Shown here piece by piece: positions 372 through 7,076 of a DNA stretch of 64,000 bases. This DNA is from Pseudonocardiaceae bacterium (GTDB taxonomy: Bacteria > Actinomycetota > Actinomycetes > Mycobacteriales > Pseudonocardiaceae), in the NCBI GenBank assembly GCA_009379815.1, contig WHSY01000001.1, forward strand, positions 1,323-65,322, written 5' to 3'. Each line of letters starts with the position of its first letter. The stretch's first letter is position 1. A program made the position numbers and the translations under genes. A model generated the notes under the pieces. It was not told where the DNA came from. It was given only the letters and a program-made list of their open reading frames with translations, and ran no database searches.

Positions 372-440
372 GGATCCCAGCAACCCGACTCCACCGAACC
401 CGGGGCGTCCCAGAGTCTCCACGGGACCCAGTGCGGTTCA

Positions 441-563
441 ACCTTCGCGATCCGCACTTTGCTCGGTTGGTATCGCGTGGGCGAGGACGTCGGGGCCAAG
501 ATCCCGTCGCTGTCGACCTACCTGGGACACCGCGAACCGAGCTCCACCTACTGGTATCTGTCG
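441..563 (+). pseudogene. Tyrosine recombinase (invaded integrase), C-terminal part up to the insertion point
   Basis: In the frame starting at 441 the sequence reads FAIRTLLGWYRVG, then AKIPSLSTYLGH and STYWYLS. This is the C-terminal catalytic block of the integrase subgroup found in multi-recombinase elements: LGH is the third catalytic position and STYWY carries the nucleophilic Tyr. Homology starts abruptly at about 441, just where the HxxR motif should be, so the 5' part is lost. It also stops abruptly at codon 561-563. The expected continuation (APELLALAAAR) is found in + orientation at 4634-4672, on the far side of the inserted cassette. Non-functional. Confidence 0.75.
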
Positions 564-566
564 GAA
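558..566 (+). repeat. Left inverted repeat of the recombinase cassette
   Basis: CTGTCGGAA, the reverse complement of 4602-4610. It begins inside the WYLS codons of the interrupted integrase and overlaps the TATCTG direct repeat (555-560). It is the candidate recombinase-binding arm at the left end. Confidence 0.45.
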
Positions 567-812
567 GGCTCGGGAATTGCATCAGGCGGGCGAGAAACCG
601 CAGGTCACCTGCTCAGCGGGGCCTCGGAGTGGCCCTGCTCGTCGGCCGCCTGAGGCCGTCCTGACCTGCCGATTTGATCAGCCACGCCCGTTTGGTGCAT
701 GATCCGACCACTTTCCGAAGGGGTTGGGGGCGGGTTGCGGCGGGTTGATCTGGCAGGTGCGGCACACCTCGAGCTCGTCGACGGCGTGCGGCAGTTGCGC
801 CCGGAGGACGCC

Positions 813-1859
813 ATGGTTGAGGCGATGCCGCGGGGCTGGCGCGCGCAGCAGCACGCTCGCGGGCTGCGGGAGGGCACGGTCGCGCCGCGGGAGCGGCTGG
901 TGCGCCAGTTTCTGGACTTCACCAACGAGTACCCGTGGCGGTGGACGGCGTCGCATGTGGACGAGTGGTCGTTGTCGATGACCAGCGAACGGCGCTTGGC
1001 ACCGTCCACGGTCCGCGGCTATCAGACAGACCTGCGGCTGTTCACCGAGTTCTTGGCCGACAACGCGCGCTATGGCTGGGTGTCGGCCTGTGAGCGGGAG
1101 TTCGGTCCCGGGGTGCACCCGGTGGCGATCGTGCACGAGTGGAACTCCATCGCCCACCTCCAGGCCTATGAGGGGAACCCGGAGGCCCGGCCGTTCAGCC
1201 GGGCGGAGCTGCAGCGGTTCCTCGACTACGCCGACGACCAGGTCGAGCGTGCGGTGCGGGCGAAGCGCAAGGGCGCGCTGGCGGCCTATCGGGACGCCAC
1301 CGTGTTCAAGGTGATGTACGGCTGGGGCCTTCGCAGGACCGAGACGGCGAAGCTCGACGTCTCCGACTGGGGACGAAACCCGGAGGCCCCGGAGTTCGGC
1401 CGGTACGGGTCGCTGCGCGTCCGATACGGCAAGGCCAAGCGCGGCCAGCCGCCGCGGCGCCGCAACGTATTGTCGATGTTCGGCTGGGCGGTGGACGCGG
1501 TGGACGACTATGTGGAGAACATCCGCCCGAGGTTCGGCTGTCCGGATCACCCGGCGTTATGGGTGAGCGAACGCGGTGGGCGGGTCCGGCCACCGGAGAT
1601 CAACGCGAGGTTCGAGTCCTACCGGGACGCGTTGAAACTTCCGAAATCCCTTGTGCCCCATAGCCTTCGGCACTCGTTCGTGACGCACAACACCGAGGAC
1701 GGGGTTGACCGGAGATTCATCCAGGTCCAGGTCGGGCACGAGTGCGACAGCTCGACGGCCATCTACACCCACGTCAGCGACGACTTCATGAACACCATGC
1801 TCCGCAAGGCGCTCGCGCCCGCGCTCGACCCTACCGCCTCCACAGACAAGGACCGTTGA
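813..1859 (+). CDS. Tyrosine-type site-specific recombinase (cassette gene 1)
   Basis: Predicted integrase of 348 aa. N-terminal SAM-like DNA-binding region (about residues 25-110: RLVRQFLDFTNEY, then STVRGYQTDLRLFTEFL) and C-terminal catalytic domain. Catalytic signatures seen: Arg in GWGLRRTE (about residue 173), the HxxR box in PHSLRHSF (about 283), GHE (about 305) and the Tyr in AIYTHVS (about 317). It therefore looks catalytically complete, unlike its partner at 2194-4623. The ATG at 813 is preferred because GGAGG precedes it by about 7 nt; an in-frame ATG at 699 would add 38 residues with no recombinase character. Its stop overlaps the next gene's ATG (TGATG), so the two are translationally coupled. 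Probably the enzyme that moves the cassette. Confidence 0.88.
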   Translation: MVEAMPRGWRAQQHARGLREGTVAPRERLVRQFLDFTNEYPWRWTASHVDEWSLSMTSERRLAPSTVRGYQTDLRLFTEFLADNARYGWVSACEREFGPGVHPVAIVHEWNSIAHLQAYEGNPEARPFSRAELQRFLDYADDQVERAVRAKRKGALAAYRDATVFKVMYGWGLRRTETAKLDVSDWGRNPEAPEFGRYGSLRVRYGKAKRGQPPRRRNVLSMFGWAVDAVDDYVENIRPRFGCPDHPALWVSERGGRVRPPEINARFESYRDALKLPKSLVPHSLRHSFVTHNTEDGVDRRFIQVQVGHECDSSTAIYTHVSDDFMNTMLRKALAPALDPTASTDKDR

Positions 1860-2197
1860 TGGCGCCGAGACTCGACTACCGCTGGCACCTGCGCAAAGTC
1901 ATGGCTGACCGCGGCCTGTTTCAGACCACGGACCTGATCGACCCGCTGGCCAAGCGCGGTGTCAGCCTGTCCTCCAGCCAGGTCTACCGGCTGGTCACTG
2001 AGCGGCCCGAGCGGCTGAGCCTGAAGGTCCTCATGGCGTTGCTGGACATCCTCGACTGCTCGATGGACGAGCTCATCGAGCCGGTCGCGGTGGCCGGCGG
2101 CGCGGCTGCCCGGAGAAGGAAGGCGGTCGGCGCCGAGGCCGGCGTCGGCGAGCTGCGCCCCAAGCGGGCTCGCATCGACGGCGTCGGACGGCCGTGA
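1859..2197 (+). CDS. Small XRE/Cro-type helix-turn-helix protein (cassette gene 2)
   Basis: A 112-aa protein. Residues about 1-70 match the Cro/C1-type HTH found in small phage-like regulators (LRKVMADRGLF, then GVSLSSSQVYRLVTE for the HTH, then LSLKVLMALLDILDCSMDELIEP). The tail (75-112) is basic and Ala/Gly/Arg-rich, probably disordered. It starts on the ATG that overlaps the integrase stop and itself overlaps the next gene by 4 bp (GTGA), so all three are co-translated. Likely role: repressor of the cassette or a recombination directionality factor. The choice between these is inference. Confidence 0.75.
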   Translation: MAPRLDYRWHLRKVMADRGLFQTTDLIDPLAKRGVSLSSSQVYRLVTERPERLSLKVLMALLDILDCSMDELIEPVAVAGGAAARRRKAVGAEAGVGELRPKRARIDGVGRP

Positions 2198-4623
2198 CTG
2201 CGCGCCACGAACGGGCCGTGTCCGACCCGATCGGGCTGATCACAGACCTGGTGGCGGCGGTCGAGCACCAGCTCGAGTCCGAGCGAATCCATGCGGTGGC
2301 CACCGCGGTCGCGGGAGGTCGCGCGAAGTCCCGGCGCCTCGCGTCGGCCCTGGCCGACCGGCCCGGGGTGCTGGCCGACGGCAGATCCCCGGCCTCCCGG
2401 GCCGTCGGCGAGCTGCTCCTCGCGCTGCGCGAGGCCGGCGCCACGGCGGTCTCGCCGCCCTGTTGCGCGCAGTGCGGTAAGCGGCTGCGGTCCCTCCAGC
2501 GCCGCGGCCGGGACTGGTATTGCGCGGTCTGCGGCCCGCGGTCTGAGCCTTGCGCTGCCTGCGGGAACACCCGGCCCGTCGCGTCCCGGGACCGGGCCGG
2601 ACGGCCACGGTGCCAGCAGTGCCCGGACCTCGACGGCCGAGACCCGATCACGGTGATCCACAAGCTGGTCGCCGGACTGGACCCCGACGCGGACCGGGTG
2701 ACGGTCGCCGCGGCAGTCCGCCAGTCGGCGCCTCGACCCTCCTACCAGCAGAAGCTGGCTTGGGTGTTGGAGGACCGACCCTCACTGCTGACCGGTGAGG
2801 GCCACCTCGCGCCGCTGCGCGCCATCCCGCGCCTCATCGACCTGCTGCACGCCGCCGGGGTCGCCGGGGTCGTCCGGCCGTCCTGCCCCGGCTGCCACCG
2901 GGTCGTGCGCATCGACAAGCCCCTCGACGGGATGCGGGTCTGCCGGACCTGCATCGCCCACTCCCGCCTCCAGGAGTGCGCGCGCTGCGGGGCCCGGCGC
3001 GAGCCAGTCACCCGCGACGACCACGGCAAGCCGCTCTGCGCGAACTGCTTCGTCACCGACCCGGCGAACCTGGAGACCTGTGTCGGCTGCGGCCGCCGCC
3101 GCTCGGTCGGCCACCGCACCCCAGACGGCCCGCTCTGCCCCAGCTGCCCCGGGCTTGCGCTCCTGACCTGCTCCGTCTGCGGCGAGACCACGCCCTGCGG
3201 CGTCTCCCGCGCCACCGGCAAGCCCTGGTGCCCGTCCTGCCATCGCCGGTCGGCTGCCTGCTCGACCTGCGGCCGCCACTCGGCGATCACCTCCGGGACC
3301 CTGTCTCATCCGCTCTGCGCCGACTGCACCGCCCCCGCGCCCTGGCTCGACTGCCCCACCTGCAGCGACCCCGACCAGCCCCACCCGGGCCAGTGCGCCC
3401 GCTGCCTGATCAACCGGCGCCTCGACGAGTTGATGGGCCCCTCCACGCACTCGTTGCCACCCGGGCTGCAGGCCCTCCGCCGCGACATCGCCACCACCGA
3501 GCACCCCATCACCGCCATGCGCTGGCTCACCAAACCGCCGATCGCCTCGGTGCTGTCCGACCTCGCGGCGGGCCGCGTTCCCCTCACGCACGAGGCGCTC
3601 GACGAACTGCCCCACAGTCAACCCCTCGCGCATCTGCGCCAAACGCTCGTCGCCGTCGGTGCGCTGCCCGAACGCGACGAGCTCATGGTCCGCCTCGAGG
3701 CCTTCCTCGCCGACCTGCTGGCCTCCCAGCCCGACACCGAGCGACGGAACCTCCTGCGCCGCTACCTGATCTGGCACCTGATCAGGCGTCTGCGCAGCCG
3801 CAACAACGGCCGGCCGACCACCCGCCAGCAGTCCCTCATGGTTCGCCGACTCGCCCGCGGCGCCGTCGCGTTCCTGGACTGGCTCCACGCGCACGACCTC
3901 ACCCTGGCCACCTGCCAACAAGCCGACATCGATCACTGGGCCACCGACGAGTCGGGCACCTACCGCGAGGAGGCGGGCCGACTCATCCGCTGGGCCCGCG
4001 CCACCAAGCTCACCACCGCCCACGTCGCCGCCACCAGCTGGAACGGCCCAGCCCAGCTCTTGGACCACCAACACCGCTGGGACACCGCGCGCCGACTGCT
4101 GCACGACGACACCCTGAAACCTGAGAACCGCCTCGCCGGCCTGCTCGTCCTCCTCTACGCCCAAGGCGCGACCGCGATCAGCCGGATGACCGTCGAGCAG
4201 ATCCAGGCCAGCACAGACGAAGTCCGCCTCCGCCTCGGACGCGCCCCCATCCACCTGCCCGAGCCCGTCGCCGCCCTGGTCCGCACCGTCGTCGCCAACC
4301 GCAAGGGACACGCGACCATCGGCGCACGAGCACCCTCGCCCTGGCTATTCCCCGGAGGCCAGCCCGCACGACCGATCAGCAGCGCGCGACTGACCCAGCG
4401 GCTCCACAACCTCGGGATCCGCCCCAGCCAGGCGCGCAGCACCGCGCTGTTCCAGCTCGCCACCGAGATCCCCGCCGCGATCCTCGCCCGCACCCTCGGC
4501 ATCCACACCGACGTCGCCGTCACCTGGCAACGCCACGCCGCCGGCGACTGGGCCGCCTACGCCGCCGAGGTCAGCCGCCGAGACTCCCCACCAGCCAGGC
4601 ATTCCGACAGTTTGAATATCTGA
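2194..4623 (+). CDS. Multi-zinc-ribbon protein with degenerate tyrosine-recombinase domain (cassette gene 3)
   Basis: An 809-aa protein of unusual architecture. Residues about 90-402 contain roughly eight successive CxxC...CxxC zinc-ribbon-like modules (for example CARCGARRE...CANC, CVGCGRRRS...CPSC, CSTCGRHSA...CADC). Residues about 515-610 resemble a recombinase core-binding domain (RRLARGAVAFLDWLHAHDL, IDHWATDES). Residues about 640-800 follow the catalytic-domain pattern but with the active site lost: the TGLRxSE Arg region reads QGATAISRM, the HxLRH box reads PSQARST, and the region of the nucleophilic Tyr reads TWQRHAAGDW. I infer an accessory DNA-binding or architectural subunit for the active integrase at 813-1859 rather than an enzyme. 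Start GTG at 2194 overlaps gene 2; the stop lies in the right boundary of the element. Confidence 0.72.
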   Translation: MTARHERAVSDPIGLITDLVAAVEHQLESERIHAVATAVAGGRAKSRRLASALADRPGVLADGRSPASRAVGELLLALREAGATAVSPPCCAQCGKRLRSLQRRGRDWYCAVCGPRSEPCAACGNTRPVASRDRAGRPRCQQCPDLDGRDPITVIHKLVAGLDPDADRVTVAAAVRQSAPRPSYQQKLAWVLEDRPSLLTGEGHLAPLRAIPRLIDLLHAAGVAGVVRPSCPGCHRVVRIDKPLDGMRVCRTCIAHSRLQECARCGARREPVTRDDHGKPLCANCFVTDPANLETCVGCGRRRSVGHRTPDGPLCPSCPGLALLTCSVCGETTPCGVSRATGKPWCPSCHRRSAACSTCGRHSAITSGTLSHPLCADCTAPAPWLDCPTCSDPDQPHPGQCARCLINRRLDELMGPSTHSLPPGLQALRRDIATTEHPITAMRWLTKPPIASVLSDLAAGRVPLTHEALDELPHSQPLAHLRQTLVAVGALPERDELMVRLEAFLADLLASQPDTERRNLLRRYLIWHLIRRLRSRNNGRPTTRQQSLMVRRLARGAVAFLDWLHAHDLTLATCQQADIDHWATDESGTYREEAGRLIRWARATKLTTAHVAATSWNGPAQLLDHQHRWDTARRLLHDDTLKPENRLAGLLVLLYAQGATAISRMTVEQIQASTDEVRLRLGRAPIHLPEPVAALVRTVVANRKGHATIGARAPSPWLFPGGQPARPISSARLTQRLHNLGIRPSQARSTALFQLATEIPAAILARTLGIHTDVAVTWQRHAAGDWAAYAAEVSRRDSPPARHSDSLNI
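4602..4622 (+). repeat. Right inverted repeat and direct-repeat edge of the cassette
   Basis: TTCCGACAG (4602-4610) is the inverted copy of 558-566. It is followed by TTTGAA and then TATCTG (4617-4622), the direct copy of 555-560. The arrangement of arm, short spacer and a weaker CTGACG half-site resembles a tyrosine-recombinase core site. It coincides with the last codons of the 809-aa gene. Confidence 0.45.
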
Positions 4624-4690
4624 CGTCGCCATTTCTGCTCCGGAACTGCTCGCGCTGGCCGCCGCTCGTCAGGAACTGCGTGGTCGGCGG
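4623..4690 (+). pseudogene. Tail of the interrupted integrase, right of the cassette
   Basis: Reading from 4634 the frame encodes SAPELLALAAARQELRGRR. This is the typical C-terminal tail following TYWYLS/T in the integrase subgroup whose upstream part is at 441-563. It runs directly up to the ATG of the next integrase (4698), the tight spacing expected between consecutive recombinase genes of a multi-recombinase element. The reading frame across the joint is not clean, so excision would not simply restore the gene. Confidence 0.6.
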
Positions 4691-4697
4691 CCCGGTC

Positions 4698-5687
4698 ATG
4701 ACCCTGATCGCGCCAACGCTGCAGGCCTTCTTCACCGACCGGCTCGCCACGCAGCGCCAGGCCAGCCCGCGCACCATCGCGGCCTACCGCGACACCCTGC
4801 GGCTACTTCTCGGGTTCGTACACCGCGAGACCGGCAGGACGCCCTCCGGGCTGGACTGGAACGACCTGGACGCGACGATGATCTCCGCGTTCCTCAACCA
4901 CTTGGAGAGCGGGCGGCGCAACTCCATCAGGACTCGCAACGTGCGCCTGACCGCGATCCGCTCGCTGTTCTCCTACGCCGCGTTGCGGCACCCCGAGCAT
5001 GCCCTGCTCATCCAGTGCGTCCTGGACATCCCCCCGAAGCGGTTCGACAAGCGGGTCGTGACGTTCCTGACCGCACCCGAGGTCGACGCCCTGCTCGCCG
5101 CTCCGGACCAGGCCCGCTGGGAAGGCCGACGGGACCGGGCCCTCATGCTGTTGGCCATCCAGACCGGCCTGCGGGTCTCCGAACTCACCGGCCTGAACTG
5201 CGGCGATGTCACCCTGGGCACCGGCGCTAACGTCCGCTGCGAGGGCAAAGGACGCAAGCAACGCGCCGTGCCCCTCACCGGCCCGGCCGAGGCGCTCCTG
5301 CACGTCTGGCTCAGCGAGCGAGCCGGATGCTCGAGCGACCCGCTGTTCCCGACCCGCACCGGACGGCGGCTCAGCCGCGACGCGATCGCACTACGAGTCA
5401 GCACCCACGCCGCGACCGCCGCGCAACGATGCCCATCACTGCTGGGCAAACGAATCCATCCGCACGTCCTTCGCCACAGCTGCGCGATGGCGTTACTCCA
5501 GGCCGGCGTCGACACCTCCGTGATCGCCCTCTGGCTCGGCCACGCCAGCGTCCGATCCACCGACGCCTACGTCCACGCCGACATCAGCATCAAGGAGAAG
5601 GCGCTTGCCCTCACCACACCCGCGACAGCGCGGCCCGGTCGCTACCGCCCGCCGGACAAGGTCCTCGCGTTCCTCGAAAGCCTGTAA
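4698..5687 (+). CDS. Tyrosine-type recombinase, XerC/XerD-like (second integrase of the invaded element)
   Basis: A 329-aa integrase. N-terminal SAM-like domain at about residues 5-100 (LQAFFTDRLATQRQASPRT, then AYRDTLRLLLGFV); catalytic domain at about 120-310. All key positions are visible: Arg in QTGLRVSEL (about 158), Lys in GKGRKQRAV, HVLRHSC (about 256-262), LGHAS and Tyr in AYVHAD (about 291). Probably active. The start ATG at 4698 is chosen over the GTG at 4680 because family members begin with the MTLIAPTLQAFF block. It directly follows the tail of another integrase, so the two were adjacent genes of one element before the cassette entered. It is followed by inverted repeats that probably mark the element's right end. 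Confidence 0.88.
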   Translation: MTLIAPTLQAFFTDRLATQRQASPRTIAAYRDTLRLLLGFVHRETGRTPSGLDWNDLDATMISAFLNHLESGRRNSIRTRNVRLTAIRSLFSYAALRHPEHALLIQCVLDIPPKRFDKRVVTFLTAPEVDALLAAPDQARWEGRRDRALMLLAIQTGLRVSELTGLNCGDVTLGTGANVRCEGKGRKQRAVPLTGPAEALLHVWLSERAGCSSDPLFPTRTGRRLSRDAIALRVSTHAATAAQRCPSLLGKRIHPHVLRHSCAMALLQAGVDTSVIALWLGHASVRSTDAYVHADISIKEKALALTTPATARPGRYRPPDKVLAFLESL

Positions 5688-5796: not shown

Positions 5797-5963
5797 ATCG
5801 ACGAACTCGGCTACCTACCCCTACCCGCCGAAGCCGCCTCCGCACTGTTCCAGGTCATCGCCCAGCGATACACCAAAACCAGCATCGTGCTGACCACCAA
5901 CCGCGGCGTCGGCTCCTGGGGCCGAAATCCTCGGCGACACCACCGTCGCCGCCGCCATGCTCG
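5797..5963 (+). pseudogene. istB: IS21 helper ATPase IstB, C-terminal fragment with frameshift
   Basis: The frame opens at the Walker B motif: IDELGYLPLPAEAASALFQ, then RYTKTSIVLTTNRGVGSWG. It then jumps frame because of one extra C at about 5917-5922, and continues as EILGDTTVAAAMLD. The N-terminal half with Walker A is missing. It is cut on the left by the palindrome at 5777-5796 and on the right by an IS110 fragment. Non-functional. Confidence 0.8.
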
Positions 5964-7076
5964 ACACTGGGCGCCCCGCTGTTGGCCCGACTGGCCGCCG
6001 ACGACGTCGCGGTGATCGACGTGCCGGCCAAGCTCGCCGCCCGGGTCCGGCTGCTCTCGGCCGGCCACGGCCGCAAGAACGACGACGCCGACGCTGTCTC
6101 GGTCGCCATCGCCGCGCACACCGCACCGCACCTACGGTCGGCAGAGATCGACCAGGCGCTGGGTGCGCTGCGGGTGCTCGTCGAGCACCGAGACGACCTG
6201 GTCAAGACCCGCACTCAGCTCGTGAACCGCCTGCACGGGCTGCTCACCGAGCTCGTCCCCGCCGGCGCGGGACACCGCCGGCTGACCGTCGAGATCGCGG
6301 CCGACCTGCTCCGCCGAACGCGGCCGCGAGAGCCTGCGCGCCGCGCGGTGCGCCGCGTCGCGGTCGAACTCGTCGCCGAGCTGCGTCGACTCGAACGCCG
6401 CATCAGCTCCGCGGACGCCGCTGTTGCCACCGCCGTCGAGGCCACCGGCAGCACGCTGACCGAGCTCTACGGCATCGGCCTGGTGCTCGCCGGGAAGATT
6501 CTCGCCCGAGTGGGCCCGACCAGCCGGTTCCGCTCGGCGTCAGCGTTCGCCTCATTCACCGGTACCGCGCCGATCGAGGTCTCCTCCGGCGAGGTCGTCC
6601 GCCACCGGCTCTCCCGTGCCGGCGACCGCGGGCTCAACCACGCCCTGCACATGATGGCCCTGACTCAGATTCAGGGCCGCACCTCAGGTCGGGCCTACTA
6701 CCAGCGAAAACGCGCTGAGGGGAAGAGTCACAAAGAGGCCATGCGCTGTCTGAAGCGGCGGCTCTCCGACGTCGTCTACCGCCGACTCCGCGCCGACAAC
6801 CTGCATGCCGAGGCGGACCCGGGGAGGACACGCGAGGGCGGCTGCGTAGTCCAGCGCGACCGGCTCTCACCTCGAACACCGGCTCTTCGGACAAGTCACT
6901 TCCCGGGCCCGCACCGAAACACTACAACCCCTCCACAAGATCACCTTGACACAGAGAGGGGCCGTCCGTCTGACAGTCCCGGCGCCCGCCACCACCGCGT
7001 GCGCGAAGTCGCGCGGCTCGGCGAGGGTGGAGGGGTTGGACGGGAAGCGCGGCGAGCGCGGCGTCGAGCACCGTGA
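5964..7076 (+). pseudogene. IS110-family transposase, N-terminally truncated
   Basis: From TLGAPLLARLAADD onward the sequence matches an IS110-type transposase: the end of the DEDD RuvC-like domain (DDADAVSVAIA), a helical linker, then the C-terminal Tnp_20-like domain (LYGIGLVLAGKIL, FASFTGTAPIE, LSRAGDRGLNHALH, RAYYQRKRAEGKSH). The first 70 or so residues with the leading catalytic Asp are absent; the join to istB is at 5963/5964. The tail from about 6800 (CVVQRDRLSPRTPALRTSHFP) resembles the proline-rich ends of some IS110 proteins, and the frame stays open to 7076. Inactive. Confidence 0.82.

Follow-up and report, generated by a model that had tools for sequence, protein, structure and literature searches.

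A three-gene element behind the catalytic tyrosine of a recombinase gene is very probably a site-specific transposon that uses conserved active-site codons

The window analysed here (64,000 nt of Pseudonocardiaceae contig WHSY01000001.1) contains, at 564–4633, an intact 4,070-bp insert of three genes, A, H and B. The insert interrupts a RIT-like recombinase gene (RIT, recombinases in trio; Table 1) nine bases from where the catalytic Tyr codon begins. The C-terminus of the target recombinase, STYLGHREPSSTYWYLS, was broken after base 563, with its catalytic Tyr codon TAT at 555–557, and its tail, SAPELLALAAAR, picked up again at 4634 and was not duplicated by the insertion. In all three uninterrupted homologues of the target (loci L067, L068 and L069), YWY[LM]SA[AQ]PELLALAA ran on continuously, and in L069 the counterpart of the window target was the second of three overlapping recombinase genes in a RIT-like trio at 1471–4549. 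An earlier note, made from the letters alone, had placed a three-gene cassette of about 4.06 kb between an integrase C-terminus reaching 563 and a tail resuming at 4634, and had named beforehand the search for an uninterrupted integrase as a test; the three intact ORFs and the unbroken homologues bore out both.

The window’s own genome holds one such element, with a single exact match to the left end and a single copy of the right end. No phage, ICE or IME structural genes and no conjugation or relaxase genes were found in the window copy, which carries A, H and B only. The region around the insert is a pile of mobile-element remains. A transposase C-terminal remnant (rve_2/rve_3) at 72–371 truncates the target recombinase on its upstream side, so that the RIT-like trio either was disrupted beforehand or came to be so here; just behind the trio, at 5957–7076, lie ORFs resembling a further transposase (IS110-like by eye).

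Table 1 Features of the insert and its target in the window
Feature	Coordinates	Strand	Basis
C-terminal coding remnant of the interrupted recombinase (RIT-like trio gene 2)	432..563	+	Sequence; homologues L067/L068/L069
GAAGG, short variable stretch between target and constant left end	564..568	+	Junction comparison; taken as element-carried
Conserved left end CTCGGGAATTGCATCAG	569..585	+	Common to related copies
Degenerate inverted copy of the left-end motif	686..703	-	Just before/overlapping the gene A start; inverted copy in most copies
Gene A, tyrosine recombinase	699..1859	+	PF00589 6e-19; catalytic-residue alignment
Gene H, Cro/C1-type HTH protein	1859..2197	+	PF13443 2.5e-14
Gene B, zinc ribbons and degenerate recombinase domain	2194..4623	+	Alignment; weak model/fold matches
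Conserved right end GGCATTCCGACAGTTTGAATATCTGACGTCGCCATT	4598..4633	+	Right edge of related copies, before target tail
Displaced tail of the interrupted recombinase, SAPELLALAAARQELR...	4634..4697	+	Homologues L067–L069
RIT-like trio gene 3, tyrosine recombinase of 335 aa, target not insert	4680..5687	+	PF00589 7.7e-36; L069 trio

Protein A is 386 aa long counted from ATG 699, with a later start possible, and has all the catalytic residues of a tyrosine recombinase, R212, H321–R324, H347 and Y356 being invariant in the alignment. H is a small protein of 112 aa that matched HTH_26 only. B, of 809 aa, begins with a Cys-rich zinc-ribbon array (a long series of Cys pairs), followed by core-binding-like helices at about 516–612 that resemble those of XerD, lambda Int and Cre (VIA Z about 5 to 8.6), and ends in a degenerate recombinase domain that was poorly modelled (pLDDT about 50); the catalytic Tyr and the first Arg are missing from aligned members. 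The best Foldseek match of B was weak (E 1.2e-3), and a sequence search of B against solved structures returned only chance zinc-finger-like matches, which we discarded. The weak fold matches are the basis for the putative role of B as a DNA-binding helper.

Both edges of the window insert were true element ends, common to related copies: CTCGGGAATTGCATCAG from 569 and GGCATTCCGACAGTTTGAATATCTGACGTCGCCATT up to 4633. Ends were read in 28 copies of the close clade. The left end was CTC[AG]GGAATTGCA in nearly all of them (TTCGGGAATTGCA in L016), and the right end, GGCATTCGGACAGTTCCAATACCCGACGTCACCATT with variation, was found in 25; among the exceptions, the right ends of L052 and L065 fall outside the available sequence and L021 shows a poorer right-end match. 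The earlier note had pointed to TATCTG at both edges and to a CTGTCGGAA inverted repeat near them. Both are literally there, but neither marks the element ends: the left TATCTGTCG is target sequence that varies by target (TACGGG, TACCTC, TACGTC and others), the right AATATCTGAC belongs to the conserved right end, and the CTGTCGGAA repeat is coincidental. The conserved inverted repeat is another, formed in most copies by the left-end motif TTGCATCAGACGGG and an inverted copy about 116 bp inward (+115/116), which is degenerate in the window near 686–703. This inverted motif inside the left end may be an operator or arm site bound by H or a recombinase.

The description of the element as minimal suited the window copy but not the many copies with cargo. 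Close copies spanned about 4.0 to 6.3 kb, a range that arises because cargo may sit between B and the right end: an HAD hydrolase (L053), an MFS transporter with a MerR regulator (L056/L057) or a GNAT (L072, in which the left end was not recognisable). A, H and B were intact in many copies, and several Streptomyces copies had decayed to the end of B. At L031:8029–9196 we found an internally deleted 1.2-kb form that kept both ends, with integrase sequence on either side; it was possibly moved in trans by full elements.

The position of the window insert was repeated across the close clade. With the 4–5 putatively carried bases uncounted, 26 of the 28 left ends lay in a tyrosine-recombinase gene, 6 or 9 nt from where the catalytic Tyr codon begins (L073, one of these, was assigned by motif only, with no Pfam match), and the target tail resumed beyond the right end wherever the right side was readable. 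The 28 targets fell into 20 clusters at 50% amino acid identity, about 18 of them recombinases, and included RIT-like, Tn554-like, GInt-like (L053 and L058), large and other recombinases. That the element targets other tyrosine-recombinase genes, as had been proposed from the window alone, was supported by copies of the trio with the same ends behind the catalytic Tyr of many unrelated ones; ‘precisely behind the catalytic Tyr codon’ was right as to the tyrosine and needed refinement as to the site, 6 or 9 bases after the codon start. Two copies were exceptions: L060 lay inside an IS3-type transposase, with an rve_3 match spanning the junction, and L012 had a non-recombinase left flank and an integrase tail on the right. 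At L059, the interrupted gene is the A gene of a cousin A–H–B element with 52% identity, so the element has entered its own relative. The cousin’s H and B remain behind this insertion (L059:12032–14924).

Uninterrupted relatives were available for three further targets: L093 (97% amino acid identity) for L053, L092 (91%) for L009, and L066 for L056. Their empty sites read TACCTC^AACCCGGTC, TATTTG^TTCGAGG and TACGGC^TGGGTGACC, respectively, and comparison with the three occupied targets revealed that no target bases had been lost and none clearly duplicated. The left edge carried four extra bases ahead of CTCGGG (AACC, AACG, AAGG, AAAG or CTCT); in four copies, including the window, the break lay 9 nt after the Tyr codon start and the extra bases numbered five. 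These bases were absent from the L009 and L056 homologues; the L053 target itself has AACC. By analogy with Tn554 and SEs (PMC10214605), we infer that the 4–5 left-edge bases were carried from an earlier site.

In two plasmids of M. aubagnense HPB1.1, two elements identical over 6,326/6,326 bases occupied two different integrase genes, which indicates that the element moved recently; a third left end in this strain lay in yet another integrase (L102/L118), and a plasmid of strain JCM 15296 carried a 99.75% identical element. Boundaries, target choice, empty sites and recent movement are in this way established by sequence comparison.

Alignment of the targets on the break placed the strongest signal at A and C at −18/−17 (1.6 and 1.4 bits), the first two bases of a Thr codon, with TAY at −6. 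The break fell 18 nt after the start of the ACN codon, usually as TAY-NNN^, and this fixed distance accounts for the differing spacings from the Tyr codon. Under the resulting site model, none of the 127,952 window positions scored as high as the IS3-type target of L060, a result in favour of recognition at the DNA level. The model itself is weak, with the window’s own target at only −1.2 bits and some other true targets also scoring poorly, and it leaves recognition not fully explained.

Related elements with common ends came from many Actinomycetota. A scan with B of 84,980 genomes gave 32 loci, and A, used as the query against plasmids, matched 185 records, of which 24 exceeded 60% identity. 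In a 396-genome sample of the phylum, the close form occurred in the window’s own genome only and distant forms (38–55%) in nine others, so the element is patchy. Gene A had no match among 50,697 phage records, on which ground we rejected a phage origin. IMG/VR yielded one related locus; a second left-end match there (L100) lacked the trio and was set aside as chance, and viral contigs gave no match to the right-end pattern. Our search of openly available full-text literature returned no description of the element or its targeting.

A tree of 44 A proteins grouped the copies that target recombinases in one clade (support 97/87), whose sister, L076, lies in an acetyltransferase-like gene (joint support 100/100); distant relatives L062, L077 and L064, where readable, had a GGGAATTGCATC-type left end and were located in other genes. 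Recombinase targeting is a trait of one clade within a wider element family. That wider family, for which no description was found, includes the distant A–H–B elements L062, L077, L064 and L079–L090, which have a similar left end or show TTGCATCNGATGCA-like palindromes close to A, and sit in or near other genes.

The clade’s own A gene reads TCN at the −18 codon in nearly all copies, with ACN only in L013 and L021; distant relatives have ACN (Thr) at that position, their A proteins reading STT or ATT. L076 already has a changed −18 codon while residing in an acetyltransferase-like gene. We rejected the position weight score as proof of self-avoidance, since the clade’s own A sites scored about as high as targets (mean 9.3 versus 9.9 bits), leaving the −18 codon as the one difference. 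The codon pattern fits self-avoidance, but as the TCN change goes with one branch only and own sites are not told apart from targets by the summed score, it is no more than a lead. It is conceivable, if rather doubtful, that the clade became a specialist for the active-site codons of the family its own enzyme belongs to, cousins included, that loss of ACN protects its own recombinase gene, and that interrupted recombinases may stay active and carry the element.

We consider it very probable that the insert at 564–4633 belongs to the site-specific transposons of the multi-protein tyrosine-recombinase kind and uses a site that spans the conserved Thr...Tyr active-site codons. The general features of that kind are present: A is a catalytic tyrosine recombinase (R, H-x-x-R, H, Tyr), the ends are defined and one kind of target site is preferred. 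Weighing against this reading, no circular junction was recovered, the left flank of L012 belongs to no recombinase, and the sister lineage L076 occupies an acetyltransferase-like gene. With the probable help of H and B, A would recombine a circular form, with the predicted junction ...CACCATT-[x]-CTCGGGAATTG..., into the target. As the site spans conserved Thr...Tyr codons, it would be available in most tyrosine-recombinase genes. All target bases would be kept, the left edge would gain 4–5 bases presumably brought by the element, and the recombinase, though interrupted, would keep its catalytic residues and acquire an element-encoded tail, which may affect the host integrase.

Other origins for this arrangement are conceivable. 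The trio lies behind a co-directional integrase whose frame continues into the left end, as would be expected if A, H and B were an accessory operon and fixed partner of upstream integrases, forming one large element of four or more genes with no insertion. This has very little probability, as the integrases upstream are diverse (about 18 clusters at 50% identity), target tails resume after the right end, and one copy lies in a transposase gene; on the sequences compared, the uninterrupted homologues and the identical elements in different integrases refute it. Nor is the element likely to be an immobile relic passed from plasmid to plasmid by homologous recombination, a reading to which we give an equally slight chance. 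Movement was not seen directly and several Streptomyces copies are decayed, but many retain intact A, H and B, and the flanks of the identical M. aubagnense elements are too divergent for homologous exchange, with 25–36% ungapped identity between the two integrase genes along most of the kilobase upstream.

The positions might also reflect selection or ascertainment, the element inserting widely and only those copies in dispensable recombinase genes surviving or being looked at. In its favour, the recombinase genes that mobile elements carry are dispensable, L060 does lie in an IS3-type transposase, and the sister of the clade is found in an acetyltransferase-like gene. Against this, insertions occur at one exact gene position, 18 nt after the ACN codon start, and are not scattered over the gene. 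Furthermore, in a flank-blind sample of eight plasmid records, gathered with left-end DNA alone as the query, 15 of 16 left ends lay behind the catalytic Tyr of a recombinase, the sixteenth being the L060 transposase site. We regard this explanation as improbable, if a little less so than the other two, and favour insertion by a site-specific transposon.

Integrases that strike the genes of other mobile elements are already known. An element that reads the codons of the active site in the very family its enzyme belongs to, and does so in about 18 recombinase clusters, would have a target in very many plasmids, prophages and genomic islands, and would lodge within the recombination machinery of rivals and even of cousins. 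It would also account for some of the truncated or odd-tailed integrases in actinobacterial annotation, and it opens direct tests of degenerate coding-sequence recognition, of truncated recombinase activity and of the avoidance of self-attack.

Among known systems, Tn554 and actinobacterial Tn554-like elements are compact and site-specific, with several proteins, including tyrosine recombinases, encoded in one operon (PMC3414803), and Tn554 carries a short footprint sequence between sites (PMC10214605). The window element resembles them in compactness, site specificity and a multi-protein operon; where Tn554 has a 6-bp footprint taken over from the donor site, the element has 4–5 variable left-edge bases, absent from the uninterrupted L009 and L056 homologues, that may likewise have been carried between sites. 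Unlike Tn554, with its two catalytic tyrosine recombinases, it has one, plus an HTH_26 protein and a zinc-ribbon protein, B, that lacks the catalytic Tyr and first Arg. The TnpC-like (DUF6262) third protein of Tn554 is absent, H matching HTH_26 only, and Tn554-like modules are among the targets of the element, not its kin in gene content. RIT elements have three recombinases, all with a catalytic Tyr (PMC3414803); the three adjacent overlapping genes are alike, whereas here the second encodes an HTH protein (H), the third a degenerate one (B), and a RIT-like trio is the target.

GInts, according to the part of the description available (PMC5385486), have a ginABCD operon at one end, comprising three putative integrases and GinD, variable cargo, a recombinase-like protein without catalytic residues, and insertions that alter the C-terminus of the target product. 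The end-placed operon, variable cargo, non-catalytic recombinase-like protein and changed target C-terminus recur in our element. In contrast to the ginABCD set, it has three genes with one catalytic recombinase, and the GInt sites described in that part of the source, an ABC transporter gene and ssb, include no recombinase gene. SEs of Gammaproteobacteria carry intA–tfp–intB–srap with two catalytic (RHRY) recombinases, and are small elements marked by a core-binding-like Tfp without a catalytic motif, a short footprint and target specificity (PMC10214605). Small size, a core-binding-like non-catalytic protein and target specificity are common to both, but the window element has neither that gene set nor two RHRY recombinases. 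Its B resembles both GinC of GInts (PMC5385486) and Tfp of SEs (PMC10214605). The element would work like Tn554, GInt and SE transposons yet lacks their defining gene sets.

The nearest concept is that of helper-embedded PICIs, phage satellites in which a clade of integrases targets prophage late genes (capsid, portal and others), with attL and attR sharing an identity block, and in which the satellite’s own copy of the target gene differs in sequence, likely preventing self-integration (PMC10111431). There, as here, one integrase clade repeatedly hits the genes of other mobile elements; unlike those satellites, the element described here strikes many unrelated recombinase families, and does so at their active-site codons.
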